From Mediterranea sp. (in: CFB group bacteria) (lineage in GTDB: Bacteria > Bacteroidota > Bacteroidia > Bacteroidales > Bacteroidaceae): a DNA stretch of 42,807 bases. The notes beneath the pieces are model-generated. The model worked only from the letters and a program-made list of their open reading frames with translations, did no database searches and had not been told where the DNA came from. The DNA is taken from contig JAIRKY010000066.1 of assembly GCA_031259755.1 (NCBI GenBank), positions 1 to 42,807 on the forward strand, given 5' to 3'. Shown one piece after another: positions 3,094 through 9,952 of the stretch. A program made the translations under genes and the position numbers. How positions within the stretch are numbered: the stretch's first letter is position 1; every line of letters starts with the position of its first letter.

Positions 3094-4260
3094 TCATGCG
3101 GTATCAAAAAGATTTCCCCAAGGGTAACTTCCGGGTTTGAGCGTTATGGTAATACCCGGATTCTTGGCGGGCGCCATTCGAATTACTCCATGGGTGACTT
3201 CACATTCTATACTGAATATATTCCAGGCTGTACGTTTAAGGATTGAAAAGGCGGTTGCTCCTCCTTCAATGATTAATTCTTGTGGGATACGTTCGGATAA
3301 GAGCGCTGCGACAGCTTTTCCCATTTCTTCCCTTAATCTCAGAGCAATATCTCTACCTTTTCTGGGGGGATGATTAATGTAAAGGATCAGTGAGTCGTGC
3401 TTGGCGTATGCTCTTTTCAGTTTTTCGATCCATTGTTCGGGCGCTTCCCTGTAAAAAAGAACCGCGGGTATGTTGTATTGAACGATGTCCTGGCGTTGAA
3501 TATAGCTAAAGTCTGCCGGCGGCTTGCTGTTCGTACTTCCCAGAATGATTAACGCATGTTTGCTTTGTATACCTTCGAATGGCGCGTGCGCGTCTACATT
3601 ATATCCCCTGGCGATAAGCCAGGCGGTAAAAAAGTCTGCTCCTCCCGCGGCTAATATTCCTTCTTTTATTTCTCCGGCTCGCCGTTTGACGTCCTCTACC
3701 GTGGCGGCTTCCGCTACATATAAGCCCCTTTCTCCCATACTTCTTTGGAGTATGAGTATCTTGCCGCTGTGTTTATGGAAAAGCAGCTTTGAGACATCGG
3801 CTGTTGTTACCGGAAATTCGGGATCGTTCGCAAAGATGGTTTTGTTCAGGGGTGTTTTGTTGATGTAGTACATCCCTTTTTCTATGGTTCGTCCCCGGCT
3901 TGGGTTCTGTGGGAGTAACAGGGCGCGTGTGATCCCGGTGATCTCCATCAATGTTCTTAGTTCGATGGCGATATGGCCTCTTAATATCGAATCTGTTTTC
4001 TTAAAGATATGGGTACACCCCATGTTCTTAATGGCATTGGCTATCCGGGTTGTTTCTTCAACGGCTTCCGCTTCAGTCATGGAACGGGTGTCCGTGGCAA
4101 AAACCAACATGTCGCATTGTTCCGGGCAAGCGACGGTTTCTTCTCCTCTATACATGGTCAGGTTCACCCGAAAGCCGAATCGCCAACCAATACCTGCGAT
4201 TTCGGCTGCTCCGGTGATATCGTCGGCAATGACGATCAGTTGACAGTTGGCAGATGGCAT
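3094..4260 (-). CDS. Four-carbon acid sugar kinase (DUF1537 / DtnK-OtnK-like)
   Basis: N-terminal IVIADDITGAAEIAG, FKKTDSILRGHIAIEL, LLLPQNPSRGRTIEKGMYYINKTPLNKT; C-terminal IIEGGATAFSILKR and PGSYPWG. Confidence 0.88.
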   Translation of the reverse strand: MPSANCQLIVIADDITGAAEIAGIGWRFGFRVNLTMYRGEETVACPEQCDMLVFATDTRSMTEAEAVEETTRIANAIKNMGCTHIFKKTDSILRGHIAIELRTLMEITGITRALLLPQNPSRGRTIEKGMYYINKTPLNKTIFANDPEFPVTTADVSKLLFHKHSGKILILQRSMGERGLYVAEAATVEDVKRRAGEIKEGILAAGGADFFTAWLIARGYNVDAHAPFEGIQSKHALIILGSTNSKPPADFSYIQRQDIVQYNIPAVLFYREAPEQWIEKLKRAYAKHDSLILYINHPPRKGRDIALRLREEMGKAVAALLSERIPQELIIEGGATAFSILKRTAWNIFSIECEVTHGVIRMAPAKNPGITITLKPGSYPWGNLFDTA

Positions 4261-4288: not shown

Positions 4289-5335
4289 TTAACTGCCTTG
4301 GCGTATGGCTTGCAACTTGGTTATCGCCATACGTGTAGCATAGTCAATGGATAATAGCATGGCGTCCGGGCTTGCTATTCCTTTTCCGGCTACGTCGAAT
4401 GCTGTTCCGTGGTCTACCGATACACGGATGATGGGTAGTCCCAAAGTGATGTTTACACCTTGAACACTGCTCATTCTTCCGGTTTCGGGATCCCAGTTAA
4501 AGCCTACTACTTTAAATGGAATGTGTCCCTGATCATGATACATAGCTACACAGCCATCGTATTGTCCACACTTCGCTTTGGCAAACAGGGTGTCGGGGGG
4601 TATAGGACCATCCACGTTGTACCCCGTGTTCTTTAGCTCGTTTACTGCCGGGATGATTTCTTTTTCTTCTTCCCAGCCGAACAATCCGTTGTCGCTTGAG
4701 TGCGGGTTTAACCCTGCAATGCCGATGCGTGGGTTTTCAATGCCAAACTGCTTGCAGGCATCCGCCATGAGTTGGGTAACGTCGATAATGCGTTGTTTTT
4801 TCACCTTGTCGCAAGCTTCACGCAAGGAGACGTGTGTCGAAACATGGATCACTCTCAGGAATTCGTCGGCCAACAGCATGGCATATTTGCTTGTTCCCGT
4901 GAAGTGGGCATATATCTCCGTATGCCCGTCGAAATGATGCTCCGCCAAGTTCAACGCTTCCTTATTGATGGGCGCCGTAACTGTTCCATCCACTTCTTTG
5001 TTCATGGCCAGTTCGATAGCTGTCTTGATGGACAGGAAGGCGGCGTCTCCTGCTTTAGCAGACACTTTACCATATTCCAATTGATCTAATCCGGTATAGT
5101 TCAGGTCATAAACATCTATACATCCATATTCGAATCCGGCATCGGAAACCTTGCCGATAGGATGGATATGCATGGATAGCCCGGTTGTTTTGATCGCTTT
5201 ACGCATCACTCCGGCGTCGGCAATAACCAGTGGGTTGCACCGGTCATATATTTTTTTCTTGTCGAGGGCTTTCACTACGATCTCAGGGCCTATGCCTGCG
5301 GGGTCGCCCATGGTAATGGCTAATGTCGGCTTCAT
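4289..5335 (-). CDS. PdxA-family 4-phospho acid-sugar dehydrogenase (PdxA2-like)
   Basis: MKPTLAITMGDPAGIGPEI, GHTEIYAHFTG, MYHDQGHIPFKV, RVSVDHGTAFDVAGKGIA; adjacent to the DUF1537 kinase, favouring PdxA2 over biosynthetic PdxA. Confidence 0.88.
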   Translation of the reverse strand: MKPTLAITMGDPAGIGPEIVVKALDKKKIYDRCNPLVIADAGVMRKAIKTTGLSMHIHPIGKVSDAGFEYGCIDVYDLNYTGLDQLEYGKVSAKAGDAAFLSIKTAIELAMNKEVDGTVTAPINKEALNLAEHHFDGHTEIYAHFTGTSKYAMLLADEFLRVIHVSTHVSLREACDKVKKQRIIDVTQLMADACKQFGIENPRIGIAGLNPHSSDNGLFGWEEEKEIIPAVNELKNTGYNVDGPIPPDTLFAKAKCGQYDGCVAMYHDQGHIPFKVVGFNWDPETGRMSSVQGVNITLGLPIIRVSVDHGTAFDVAGKGIASPDAMLLSIDYATRMAITKLQAIRQGS

Positions 5336-5388: not shown

Positions 5389-8127
5389 TTAGTATAAATT
5401 ACGATATATTTCCCGTGCGTCCTTTTCGGTTACTTCTCTGGGGTTATTTTTCAGCAGCCGTTGTACTTGCATGGCAGCTTCGGCCATGTGATTGACCGCG
5501 CTTTCCGGAACGCCGATCTCTGTTAGCTTAGTGGGTATGCCGCACTCTTTGGATAGCCGGGTAATGAAGTCTACGCCTTTTTCGGCTGTTTCTTCATCTG
5601 TCCCTCCCGGGGTTACGCCGCATGCCAAAGCTATATCGGCAAACTTGCGGACGTCCGAACTACGGTTAAAGCGCATGACGGAGGGTAAAAGTATGGCGTT
5701 TGCCAGGCCGTGCGAAATATGAAATTCGCCGCCAAGCGGGTAGGAGAGTGCATGTACGGCGGCAGTATTGACAGGCCCCAGGCAAATGCCGCCATAGTAA
5801 CTTCCCAACATAAGAGCTTCGCGGGCTTCGATGTCTTTTCCGTCTTTTACGGCGCGTAGCAGATTTGCCGCGATCAGTTCAATACCTTTTCGGGCATACA
5901 TGTCAATGACCGGATGGGCAAACTTATTGGTATAAGCTTCGATGCAGTGTGTCAGTGCATCCATGCCCGTCTCGGCGGTCACTTTCGGCGGAACGGTTAC
6001 CGTGAGTTGCGGGTCGAGATATGCCGCATCGGCTACAAGGTAAGGGCTTACGATCCCTTTTTTCAGTTTATCTGTTTCGTCAAGCAAAATGACATTGGGC
6101 GATACTTCGCTTCCTGTTCCCGCGGTGGTTGGTAAGCAGGCCAGCCAACGCTTACGGCTTTTCAGGTATCCTGTTCCGAAGATGTCTTCCGCCTTTTGAT
6201 CGCTTCCGATAAGCGCGGCGGTCAGTTTCGCCGTGTCCAGTACGCTACCGCCTCCTATGCCAACAACACTGTCGGCGTCAAATCGGCGGGCTTCATCCAG
6301 CACAATATAGAAATCTTTTACGGAGGGTTCTTGCAATACCTTATCAAAAATGCAGATGGCTACTCCGTTCACTTTCAACTTCCGAATGGCCTCTTCGATC
6401 AGAGGCAGGATAGGAGGAGTAGTGAGCAGGAATAGTCTCTTTAATCCCGATGCTGAATAATCATTGCAGAATTGTGCGATACATCCTGTACCGAACACGA
6501 CTTTCCGCGGTTGCAAAAGAACTACAGCCTCACCCCGACCCTCTTCAAAGGAGAGGGAGCTTTTTTTCTTCTCTTTCCGTTTCTCGAGGAAGCCGTAAAT
6601 AGTCAAGTCTTTATCGGCAAAGGGGGCCTTGAAGAAGAAACTGGCGAAATATCCTACGACAAACAGTACGATGTGACTATAAACTCCCAGCATGTATTTG
6701 TGGTGTTTGAAGTTCCAATCGCCTAAATCAAGTAGCGCCCGGCTGCCTTGCCCGTCGCCGAAATCGAATTTGGTTGAGGTCAGCATGGCGTAAGCTGTAA
6801 ACAATACGGCAGCGGCAATACCCACATACAGACCTTGCTTGTTGGCGCGGCGGCTCAATAGCCCGAGTAGAAAAAGGCCGACGATACCGGCGGAGAAGAT
6901 GGCATATAACTCAAAGACAATGCCTAATACTCCCTCGCCTCCCCAATGGGCATAGATCAGCGCTACTCCAATGGCGGCTACCCCGGACAGAAGTACAAGT
7001 ACACGTGCCAGGCGCAAGCGTTGTTTATCGGTACTTTCAGGTTTGAACCGGACGTAATAGTCTTCCACGCCGATAGCTGCCAGGCAGTTCATGTCGGAGT
7101 CGAGGCTGGATATGGCGGTGGCGATCAGGGCTGCCAGAATAAGTCCCAGTATTCCCGTCGGTAGCTCCGTGGCCATGAAATAAGGGAATACAGCATCAGC
7201 TTTGATCCCTTCGGGAAGTGATGATCCGGCGATTTGATAATAGGCGAATAATCCTGTACCGATGAACATGAATAATGTCCAGACAGGTACACTCATGAAT
7301 ACGCCAATGTATGCCGCTTTTTTGGCTTCCTTGTCGTTTTTCGCAGCCAGATAGCGTTGAACGATCGTTTGGTCTGTACCATATTTCTGGATGGCATAGA
7401 AAATGCCATTGAATACCATAACGATGAAGGTGAGCTGTGTCAGATCCCAGTCATACGGGCCAAAACTGATCTTGTTGAAATCAATGGCTGTGTTGATTAC
7501 GCTCGCCGGGCCTCCCTCTGGTTTGAACAGAAGGAGCAATGCGCAGATGATCCCGCCGCCGATGAGCAGGAATCCCTGGATGACATCCATCCAGATCACC
7601 CCTTCCATGCCTCCGAGTAGCGTGAGCAGTATGATGGCGACCCCCAGTACGATGATGATCGTCTGAATATCAATGCCAAGGAAAGGAGATACGGCCAGCG
7701 CCACGAGGAAGAACACGGTTCCCATTTTCGAGAAATGTGTCAGAACGAAAGCTATTGAACCGTATATACGTGCGAAGAGCCCGAAACGTTGTTCAAAATA
7801 CTCGTATGTGCTGAGTTTGATCACACGGCGGAAGAGCGGTACGATGATCCAGATCAGGCCTATCAATACGATCGGAACCATTAATCCCTGAACCAGAAGT
7901 ATCCAGTTGCCTGCGTATGCTGCTCCCGGATAAGCCAGGAATGTTACACTACTGATCAGTGTAGCGAAGATGGATATCCCGATGGCCCATGCAGGGATCT
8001 TTCCGCTTCCGGCAAAATAGTTCTCCGTATTTTTCTGCCGGCGTGAGAAGTAAAGTCCCACACCGATAGCCAGCGCTACCGATACGATAATGATCGTAAA
8101 ATCTATCCAGTGGAGTGTTTGTTCCAT
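5389..8127 (-). CDS. Fusion: N-terminal sodium/solute symporter (SSS) plus C-terminal iron-containing alcohol dehydrogenase
   Basis: Residues ~1-520 multi-TM SSS with NTENYFAGSGKIPAWAIGISIFATLISSVTFLAYPG; residues ~535-912 Fe-ADH with VVFGTGCIAQF, VGIGGGSVLDTAKL, PTTAGTGSEVSP and metal-ligand segments VADAAYLDP, TGMDALTHCIEAY, HALSYPLGGEFHISHG; a single uninterrupted ORF. Confidence 0.9.
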   Translation of the reverse strand: MEQTLHWIDFTIIIVSVALAIGVGLYFSRRQKNTENYFAGSGKIPAWAIGISIFATLISSVTFLAYPGAAYAGNWILLVQGLMVPIVLIGLIWIIVPLFRRVIKLSTYEYFEQRFGLFARIYGSIAFVLTHFSKMGTVFFLVALAVSPFLGIDIQTIIIVLGVAIILLTLLGGMEGVIWMDVIQGFLLIGGGIICALLLLFKPEGGPASVINTAIDFNKISFGPYDWDLTQLTFIVMVFNGIFYAIQKYGTDQTIVQRYLAAKNDKEAKKAAYIGVFMSVPVWTLFMFIGTGLFAYYQIAGSSLPEGIKADAVFPYFMATELPTGILGLILAALIATAISSLDSDMNCLAAIGVEDYYVRFKPESTDKQRLRLARVLVLLSGVAAIGVALIYAHWGGEGVLGIVFELYAIFSAGIVGLFLLGLLSRRANKQGLYVGIAAAVLFTAYAMLTSTKFDFGDGQGSRALLDLGDWNFKHHKYMLGVYSHIVLFVVGYFASFFFKAPFADKDLTIYGFLEKRKEKKKSSLSFEEGRGEAVVLLQPRKVVFGTGCIAQFCNDYSASGLKRLFLLTTPPILPLIEEAIRKLKVNGVAICIFDKVLQEPSVKDFYIVLDEARRFDADSVVGIGGGSVLDTAKLTAALIGSDQKAEDIFGTGYLKSRKRWLACLPTTAGTGSEVSPNVILLDETDKLKKGIVSPYLVADAAYLDPQLTVTVPPKVTAETGMDALTHCIEAYTNKFAHPVIDMYARKGIELIAANLLRAVKDGKDIEAREALMLGSYYGGICLGPVNTAAVHALSYPLGGEFHISHGLANAILLPSVMRFNRSSDVRKFADIALACGVTPGGTDEETAEKGVDFITRLSKECGIPTKLTEIGVPESAVNHMAEAAMQVQRLLKNNPREVTEKDAREIYRNLY
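6526..6562 (-). repeat. Hairpin-containing dispersed-type repeat embedded in frame in the linker of the SSS/Fe-ADH fusion
   Basis: Minus-strand AGCTCCCTCTCCTTTGAAGAGGGTCGGGGTGAGGCT with CCCTCT/AGAGGG stem; resembles a motif I recall between genes in Bacteroidales genomes. Confidence 0.6.
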
Positions 8128-8157: not shown

Positions 8158-8211
8158 ATACTTGCATCCCCAAGAGATGACCCTTCACTACGTTCAGGAT
8201 GACGCAAGTAT
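8158..8211. repeat. Inverted-repeat element between the symporter fusion and the aldolase gene
   Basis: Arms ATACTTGC (8158-8165) and GCAAGTAT (8204-8211); core GTCATCCTGAACGTAGTGAAGGGTCATC on the minus strand; supplies the stop codon of the aldolase gene. Confidence 0.55.
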
Positions 8212-9156
8212 GGTTGAATTTAATATTTTCTTTTCTTCCTCCACGCTAACTTGTGTCAACGGTGCAAGCATATAGGGTTGGCAGAGGTTCTTTGTTCCCA
8301 TCATGACTTTCAGGGCTGCCAGTGATTCACCCAATGTACGTCCTTCCTGATAGATGCGAGCGATCTTGTCTGTTTTCTCTTGCAGGTCATTCGCTTTCTG
8401 TATGTCACCTGAAACGGCAGCGTTATATAATTCGGCAAACATGTCCGGGACGAAATTGCCTGTGCTGGGAACGATGCCGTCTGCTCCATTCAACAGGCTG
8501 TTTGCCGATTGTGCGGCCCATCCGCAGAAGTAAGCGAAGCCGGAGTTGTTACGTGAGATCGCCAAACATTCTTTCATGCGCTCCAGGTCACGTTCCGAAT
8601 CTTTCAGTCCAACGATGTTAGGGTGTGTGCTGAGGCGTTTTATAATTTCAACCGGAATGCTCGTATGTGTTGTCGCCTTGATATTATAAAGCATGAGCGG
8701 GGCAGTGATGTTGTCGGCCAATGTCTTGTAGTAGTTGTACATTTGTTCATCCGTCAAGGCATAGTAGCCGGGCAGGGTGGCAACGATGACATCGGCCCCG
8801 AGTTTGTGGTATTCGTTTGCCGTCCGGATATGCTCGCTTACGCAACAGCCGCTCAGCCCGGCATAAATGATTATTGCGGAAACGTTCCGCCGCGAGGTTG
8901 AGGCAACGCGCTCCTTCGGGTTCTCCATACGGGATACTGCTGCGCGGGCGGCTTCCACTGCGATTTTAACGAACAGAAGTCCTTGCCCGGGCGATACGGA
9001 ATTACCTTCGCCGGTTGTACCCATAAGCAACGGGTGGATATTGTGTTCAGCAAAAAGTTCAATAATTTTATCGACTGCCGTAACGTCTATCGCTCCTTGC
9101 TCTGTGACGGGAGTGATCATCGGAACAACGACTCCTCTGTATTTGCTATCTTTCAT
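8194..9156 (-). CDS. Dihydrodipicolinate synthase/N-acetylneuraminate lyase family aldolase
   Basis: LLMGTTGEGNSVS motif, catalytic Tyr region LMLYNIKATTHTSIP, Schiff-base Lys region IVGLKDSERD, NGADGIVPSTGNFVPDMFAEL. Confidence 0.88.
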   Translation of the reverse strand: MKDSKYRGVVVPMITPVTEQGAIDVTAVDKIIELFAEHNIHPLLMGTTGEGNSVSPGQGLLFVKIAVEAARAAVSRMENPKERVASTSRRNVSAIIIYAGLSGCCVSEHIRTANEYHKLGADVIVATLPGYYALTDEQMYNYYKTLADNITAPLMLYNIKATTHTSIPVEIIKRLSTHPNIVGLKDSERDLERMKECLAISRNNSGFAYFCGWAAQSANSLLNGADGIVPSTGNFVPDMFAELYNAAVSGDIQKANDLQEKTDKIARIYQEGRTLGESLAALKVMMGTKNLCQPYMLAPLTQVSVEEEKKILNSTILASS

Positions 9157-9458: not shown

Positions 9459-9463
9459 CATCA

Positions 9464-9526
9464 TGTTTTTCATAGTATTAGATTTAAGGTTAACAAGGAT
9501 TGGGATCAGGCGTGATCCCTTTTTTT
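9464..9526 (+). ncRNA. Candidate ~63-nt small RNA with its own promoter and intrinsic terminator
   Basis: No ORF; starts ~6 nt after TAnnTTTG; body CATAGTATTAGATTTAAGGTTAACAAGGATT; ends in GGGATCA-GGCG-TGATCCC plus T7. Confidence 0.65.
9502..9526 (+). terminator. Intrinsic terminator of the candidate sRNA
   Basis: Perfect 7-bp stem GGGATCA (9502-9508)/TGATCCC (9513-9519), loop GGCG, T-tract 9520-9526. Confidence 0.8.
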
Positions 9527-9574
9527 ATGCATGTATGCCTCAAGTCTCTGCACTTCTCTGCTTTAGAAACTAAG

Positions 9575-9786: not shown

Positions 9787-9913
9787 CTATGCGCATGATG
9801 AGGGTCTTGTCATGCGCATAACGACCCCTTCATCATGCGCATAACAAGGCCTTCATCATGCGCATAACAAGGCCCTCATCATGCGTATGACAAGACCCTC
9901 GTCATGCGCATAG
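9787..9913. repeat. Degenerate 23-bp tandem repeat array with inverted terminal units
   Basis: Units CATGCGCATAACGACCCCTTCAT / CATGCGCATAACAAGGCCTTCAT / CATGCGCATAACAAGGCCCTCAT / CATGCGTATGACAAGACCCTCGT; 9787-9819 is the reverse complement of 9881-9913 at 31/33 positions. Confidence 0.85.
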
Positions 9914-9952
9914 CAAAACCTGTTCGTTCCTATTGGGGGACGTGTTTGGAAT

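Follow-up and report, generated by a model that had tools for sequence, protein, structure and literature searches.

In the Mediterranea sp. MAG GCA_031259755.1, a Na+/solute symporter and an iron alcohol dehydrogenase share one 912-residue open reading frame, and the linker between them is encoded by one arm of a repeat of the intrastrand-triplex (TM) class, which is dispersed and mostly occurs in pairs. The fusion probably arose through the presence of this repeat at the junction of the two genes, together with a local deletion of the stop codon, the spacer and the ATG. As a rule, gene fusions are deduced from the finished product. The junction studied here was observed in three different conditions: empty (G148, G153 and G138), filled but separate (G127 and G074) and fused (the window, by which we mean the whole 42,807-nucleotide stretch analysed, positions 1-42,807 of contig JAIRKY010000066.1). 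With three states at a single junction, two ideas therefore become testable: small deletions may be triggered by repeats that form structures, and new composite proteins may obtain their linkers from deletions of this kind. Dispersed repeats read in proteins would offer a route by which new composite proteins can be built.

The fused gene and its neighbourhood

The genome is represented by one MAG assembly of 1.68 Mb, 60% complete and in 144 contigs. Both moieties of the fused reading frame were complete by Pfam analysis (SSF at residues 37-436, Fe-ADH at 540-706 and ADH_Fe_C at 717-911), and the frame runs from the symporter tail through the second arm of the usual repeat pair (arm 2) into the dehydrogenase (Table 1). 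An earlier sequence-only reading had described a hairpin repeat in this linker; its coordinates, sequence, linker peptide and CCCTCT/AGAGGG stem were as we found them, and its proposal that the repeat lies where the symporter stop codon and dehydrogenase RBS/start would be expected agrees with the orthologous junctions, which have the stop codon and the ATG at the position from which they are gone here.

Table 1. Features of the fused gene and its surroundings in the window
Feature	Position	Strand	Remarks
Four-carbon acid-sugar kinase family	3094..4260	-	
PdxA-family dehydrogenase	4289..5335	-	Same conserved cluster
Fused open reading frame	5389-8127	-	912 aa; symporter, then dehydrogenase
Fe-alcohol dehydrogenase moiety	5389..6525	-	aa 535-912 and stop; own ATG missing; Pfam Fe-ADH, ADH_Fe_C
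In-frame alternative starts just past the repeat	6496..6516	-	Only two: TTG codon 538 (6514-6516), GTG codon 544 (6496-6498)
Repeat arm, TM type B-like	6526..6559	-	'+' arm of the usual '-+' dimer; 34 nt, CTCCCTCTCCTTTGAAGAGGGTCGGGGTGAGGCT
Linker peptide SSLSFEEGRGEA	6526-6561	-	aa 523-534; encoded by the repeat arm and two preceding bases
Stretch across the fusion linker			EKRKEKKKSSLSFEEGR
Symporter moiety	6562..8127	-	aa 1-522, native tail EKRKEKKK; Pfam SSF; orthologues are separate genes
DapA-family lyase	8194..9156	-	Upstream of the fused gene
Rfam match to Bacteroidetes sRNA family FopS (RF04319)	9463-9529	+	72 bits, E 9e-9
Tandem 23-nt repeats on palindrome ATGCGCAT	9789-9921		Between the DapA-family gene and a 946-aa regulator

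The cluster of DapA-family lyase, symporter, dehydrogenase, PdxA-family dehydrogenase and acid-sugar kinase was kept in most relatives examined, and its protein families are consistent with a role in the uptake and breakdown of a small sugar acid. The DapA-family protein carries, at about residues 76-88, a 13-residue in-frame insertion (about SRMENPKERVAST) that is missing in three relatives and is not built from the fusion-linker repeat.

The junction in relatives

The two genes were separate at every orthologous junction that could be read across, making the fusion private to the window genome; no fused homologue was detected among 393 genomes of the order, and the case in which all orthologues are fused through unrelated linkers did not arise, as no orthologue was fused with any linker. 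The nearest relative is L039, identical in sequence to G148, with a symporter 91% and a dehydrogenase 85% identical to those of the window; its symporter ends in KLNND and a stop codon, followed by the ATG of a separate dehydrogenase gene. Its junction is empty of the repeat, as are those of a second close relative, G153, and of G138, and the comparison of orthologous loci proposed in the sequence-only reading thus found these repeat-free junctions unfused.

At the same junction, G127 and G074 carry an inverted repeat pair with the genes still separate. Arm 1 codes for the C-terminal residues of the symporter in these genomes (EKRKASPQPSPKEREQDR and EEKRKEASPQPSPKEREKEE, each followed by the stop codon), while arm 2 follows the dehydrogenase ATG and is translated as an N-terminal extension, the G074 peptide (MNKSTRASHSLSFGEGWGEALTILQP) being read in the same frame as in the window. 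The end position of arm 2 agrees within 2 nt between the window, G127 and G074, and the window retains only this second arm of the pair. Phylogenetic trees grouped the window with G148 and G153, both of which have empty junctions; the site must therefore have been filled, or else emptied, on more than one occasion.

Sequence, structure and spread of the repeat

The consensus of the repeat, CTCCCTCTCC-TTT-GGAGAGGG-CC-GGGGTGAGGCT, comprises a stem, a 2-nt linker and a third block, GGGGTGAGGCT, that mirrors the purine strand of the stem, so that the CCCTCT/AGAGGG stem reported earlier is present but forms merely part of a longer unit. Across 248 arms, 97% of triads were satisfied in register compared with 37-62% when slid, and 237/248 arms had at least 7 of 8 triads, a score that tests the consensus, since the arms were chosen by it. 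Judged by these stem/third-strand triads with a CCG-type second loop, the sequence of the repeat matches TM type B, the class II intrastrand triplex motif. Taken as a simple hairpin, the copy in the window was thermodynamically unremarkable (z -0.5 to -0.95) and exceptional in neither DNA nor RNA, and because no stem covariation above shuffles was detected among 14 own-genome copies, the structural claim rests on consensus symmetry. Neither a GTAG nor a CGTC end tag was present in the consensus CTCCCTCTCCTTTGGAGAGGGCCGGGGTGAGGCTGT, Rfam gave no match at the repeat and a plasmid collection contained no match to it. Five of the six reading frames of an arm are open, and the repeat can therefore sit inside proteins.

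The motif occurs once in the window against zero expected from shuffles. About a dozen further copies were recovered from the genome by BLASTN. A covariance model built from 14 copies recovered 20 in the genome at E < 1e-5, bearing out the suggestion of a dispersed repeat. Its earlier description as an intergenic repeat common in Bacteroidales needs qualifying: the repeat is dispersed, but patchy within the genus (a copy at E <= 1e-7 in 14/160 congeners, high copy number in about seven) and often inside genes. Many copies form inverted pairs with GTGAGGCT tails pointing outward, and in four genomes neighbouring arms were arranged '-+' in 94 cases and '+-' in none, giving the inverted dimers with short spacer that a REPIN requires. 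A RAYT/IS200-type mobiliser was considered and rejected, with Y1_Tnp present in several relatives, none of those examined flanked by the repeat, and its presence uncorrelated with that of the repeat: Y1_Tnp was absent from the incomplete assemblies of G000 and G153/G063, where the repeat is present, and present in G138, where the repeat is absent. The first arm inside gltD of G061 (L271 / L160, G061:C93) has about 20 extra loop bases, CCAACGGTCGGCGCAAGC, and similar long-loop arms elsewhere in G061 yield 60-base model matches.

Copies translated in other genes

Coding status of the copies was assigned with an ORF-wide test, which still flags some repetitive hypothetical ORFs, and the translated cases used here are only those with support from protein families or orthologues. 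The ORF-wide test replaced one confined to 180 nt around clusters, which missed clear cases including the window. Within the genome of the window, GltD contains an in-frame internal repeat pair and GltB an in-frame internal single arm, a copy lies between a signal-peptide-like start and the remainder of a GH51 arabinofuranosidase and of another protein, and further copies form C-terminal tails of a GH97 enzyme, a LeuC-like aconitase-family protein and a PepT-like M20 peptidase. Among relatives, copies were located in GltD (G061, G127), CarB (G061, G127, G074), CarA (G074), and ABC-F ATPases (G127 and G074, twice in one gene); in G127, a copy also separates the ATPase and receiver domains of a hybrid two-component kinase.

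Insertion sites in GltD and CarB recur between species. Among close relatives, the GltD site is filled in G000 and G061 and empty in G063 and G004, with filled and empty sites too diverged to define insertion ends for a target-site duplication; in G061 the insert has 12 more residues and keeps the reading frame. In place of the repeat-encoded SLTPAISKGERNT of the window's own genome, GltB of G061 (L271) has SPIPALSNPKNTS, apparently a degraded version of that insertion. CarA and CarB share one open reading frame in L214 (G127:C166) and L248 (G074:C85); in G061 the CarB ORF is separate.

Sites common to several species could go back to ancient insertions since lost from some genomes, or to insertion on several occasions, with gene conversion perhaps keeping the arms alike. 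We tentatively propose that, in this Bacteroidaceae branch, the TM-type dimer may be a long-lived protein-coding mobile element, occupying the same loops and junctions of central enzymes across species with homogeneous arms, and that local deletions there might create multidomain proteins, such as a transporter tethered to a pathway dehydrogenase. Translated copies show where enzymes such as GltD and CarB naturally tolerate insertions, and the wide translation in some Bacteroidaceae of a TM class that is intergenic in E. coli reports is relevant to annotation.

Origin and product of the fusion

In the origin that we consider probable, the repeat would first have settled in the junction of the two neighbouring genes; a local deletion would then have taken out the symporter stop codon, the spacer and the dehydrogenase ATG but spared one arm, in frame. 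An error in replication or repair close to the structured repeat may have caused the deletion; this cause, the order of insertion before deletion and the deletion endpoints are all reconstructed, and a single arm inserted directly, with the deletion occurring at the same time, would account for the junction equally well. The earlier proposal of a repeat-driven fusion of two neighbouring genes is supported in this form but was incomplete: because G074 and G127 carry the repeat with genes separate, the repeat alone does not fuse genes, and a local deletion of stop and start must therefore be added. Against this account, the empty junctions of the closest relatives demand several gains or losses. 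The unfused G074 and G127, with the repeat at the dehydrogenase N-terminus, would also suit a chance deletion or stop loss in which the repeat was a bystander already in place there. We regard this as rather unlikely, with no fusions at the repeat-free junctions examined, a missing segment that ends immediately at the arm, and small sequence changes far more numerous at E. coli TM loci than at intergenic control sites (PMC4666352), an excess that is a correlation, applied to one event. It is very unlikely that a repeat-mediated misjoin or collapse of the pair removed spacer, stop and start in the contig only. Repeats of this class are often found at contig ends of related MAGs, and the assembly is fragmented; however, the arm is below usual assembly words, collapse by direct overlap is not expected because paired arms are inverted, and the join connects natural neighbours and preserves the frame.

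As to its product, the open frame suggests translation as one protein, and on balance we expect a single stable, membrane-anchored transporter-dehydrogenase. Given the strongly basic tail of the symporter, a cytosolic position of the dehydrogenase domain is topologically plausible under the positive-inside rule. Were the dehydrogenase still made separately from TTG 538 or GTG 544, both in frame, with the repeat's GGTGAGG stretch upstream of the TTG as ribosome-binding site, the long fusion would be incidental. The unfused relatives make this unlikely: G074 has no in-frame ATG, GTG or TTG between the arm and the dehydrogenase domain, the only in-frame candidates in G127 lie inside the arm (TTG 15, GTG 20), and an ATG stands upstream of the arm in both, so that the arm is, as a rule, translated in these two relatives. 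That the fused gene is a decaying pseudogene heading for loss would fit a fusion known from a single genome, yet is highly improbable for a frame stop-free over 912 codons, with dN/dS against the nearest relative of 0.09 for the symporter and 0.17 for the dehydrogenase (0.15 between two unfused relatives) and terminal branches no longer than those of its sisters. The low dN/dS and ordinary branch lengths argue against decay, although a very recent fusion would not show it yet and much of the measured divergence may predate the fusion.

Comparison with known repeat systems

The closest counterpart is TM type B of E. coli (TMECO), reported as always intergenic (Holder et al. 2015, PMC4666352) and with triplex folding examined by CD or NMR. 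The repeat described here shares with it a near-identical sequence (E. coli CCCTCTCCCTGTGGGAGAGGGCCGGGGTGAGGGC), the order of stem, linker and third strand, frequent inverted pairs and a tie to local sequence change, whereas many copies here are translated in frame, the tail is GAGGCT and one copy lies within a gene fusion. Rickettsia palindromic elements (PMC3733652, PMC10969869) are likewise short palindromes in frame in unrelated conserved genes, encoding a surface-loop-sized peptide, and the GltD copies similarly represent in-frame insertion in a conserved gene with empty-site orthologues; their sequence and phylum differ and the arm here is much shorter, making this a likeness in mode only, with no relation claimed. 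Intragenic GTAG/CGTC REPs (Di Nocera et al. 2013, PMC3733652) are also hairpins of 20-40 bp that occur as singles and dimers, some within ORFs and sometimes twice per gene, but bear the end tags that the present repeat lacks. RAYT-mobilised REPINs resemble it in their two inverted hairpin units with a short spacer and differ in that no copy here flanks any Y1 transposase gene examined. No specific report of TM or REPIN repeats inside Bacteroides genes was found in the literature searched. Overall, the repeat class is already known, while its dimeric protein-coding form in Bacteroidaceae and a junction that is found empty, filled and fused look new.
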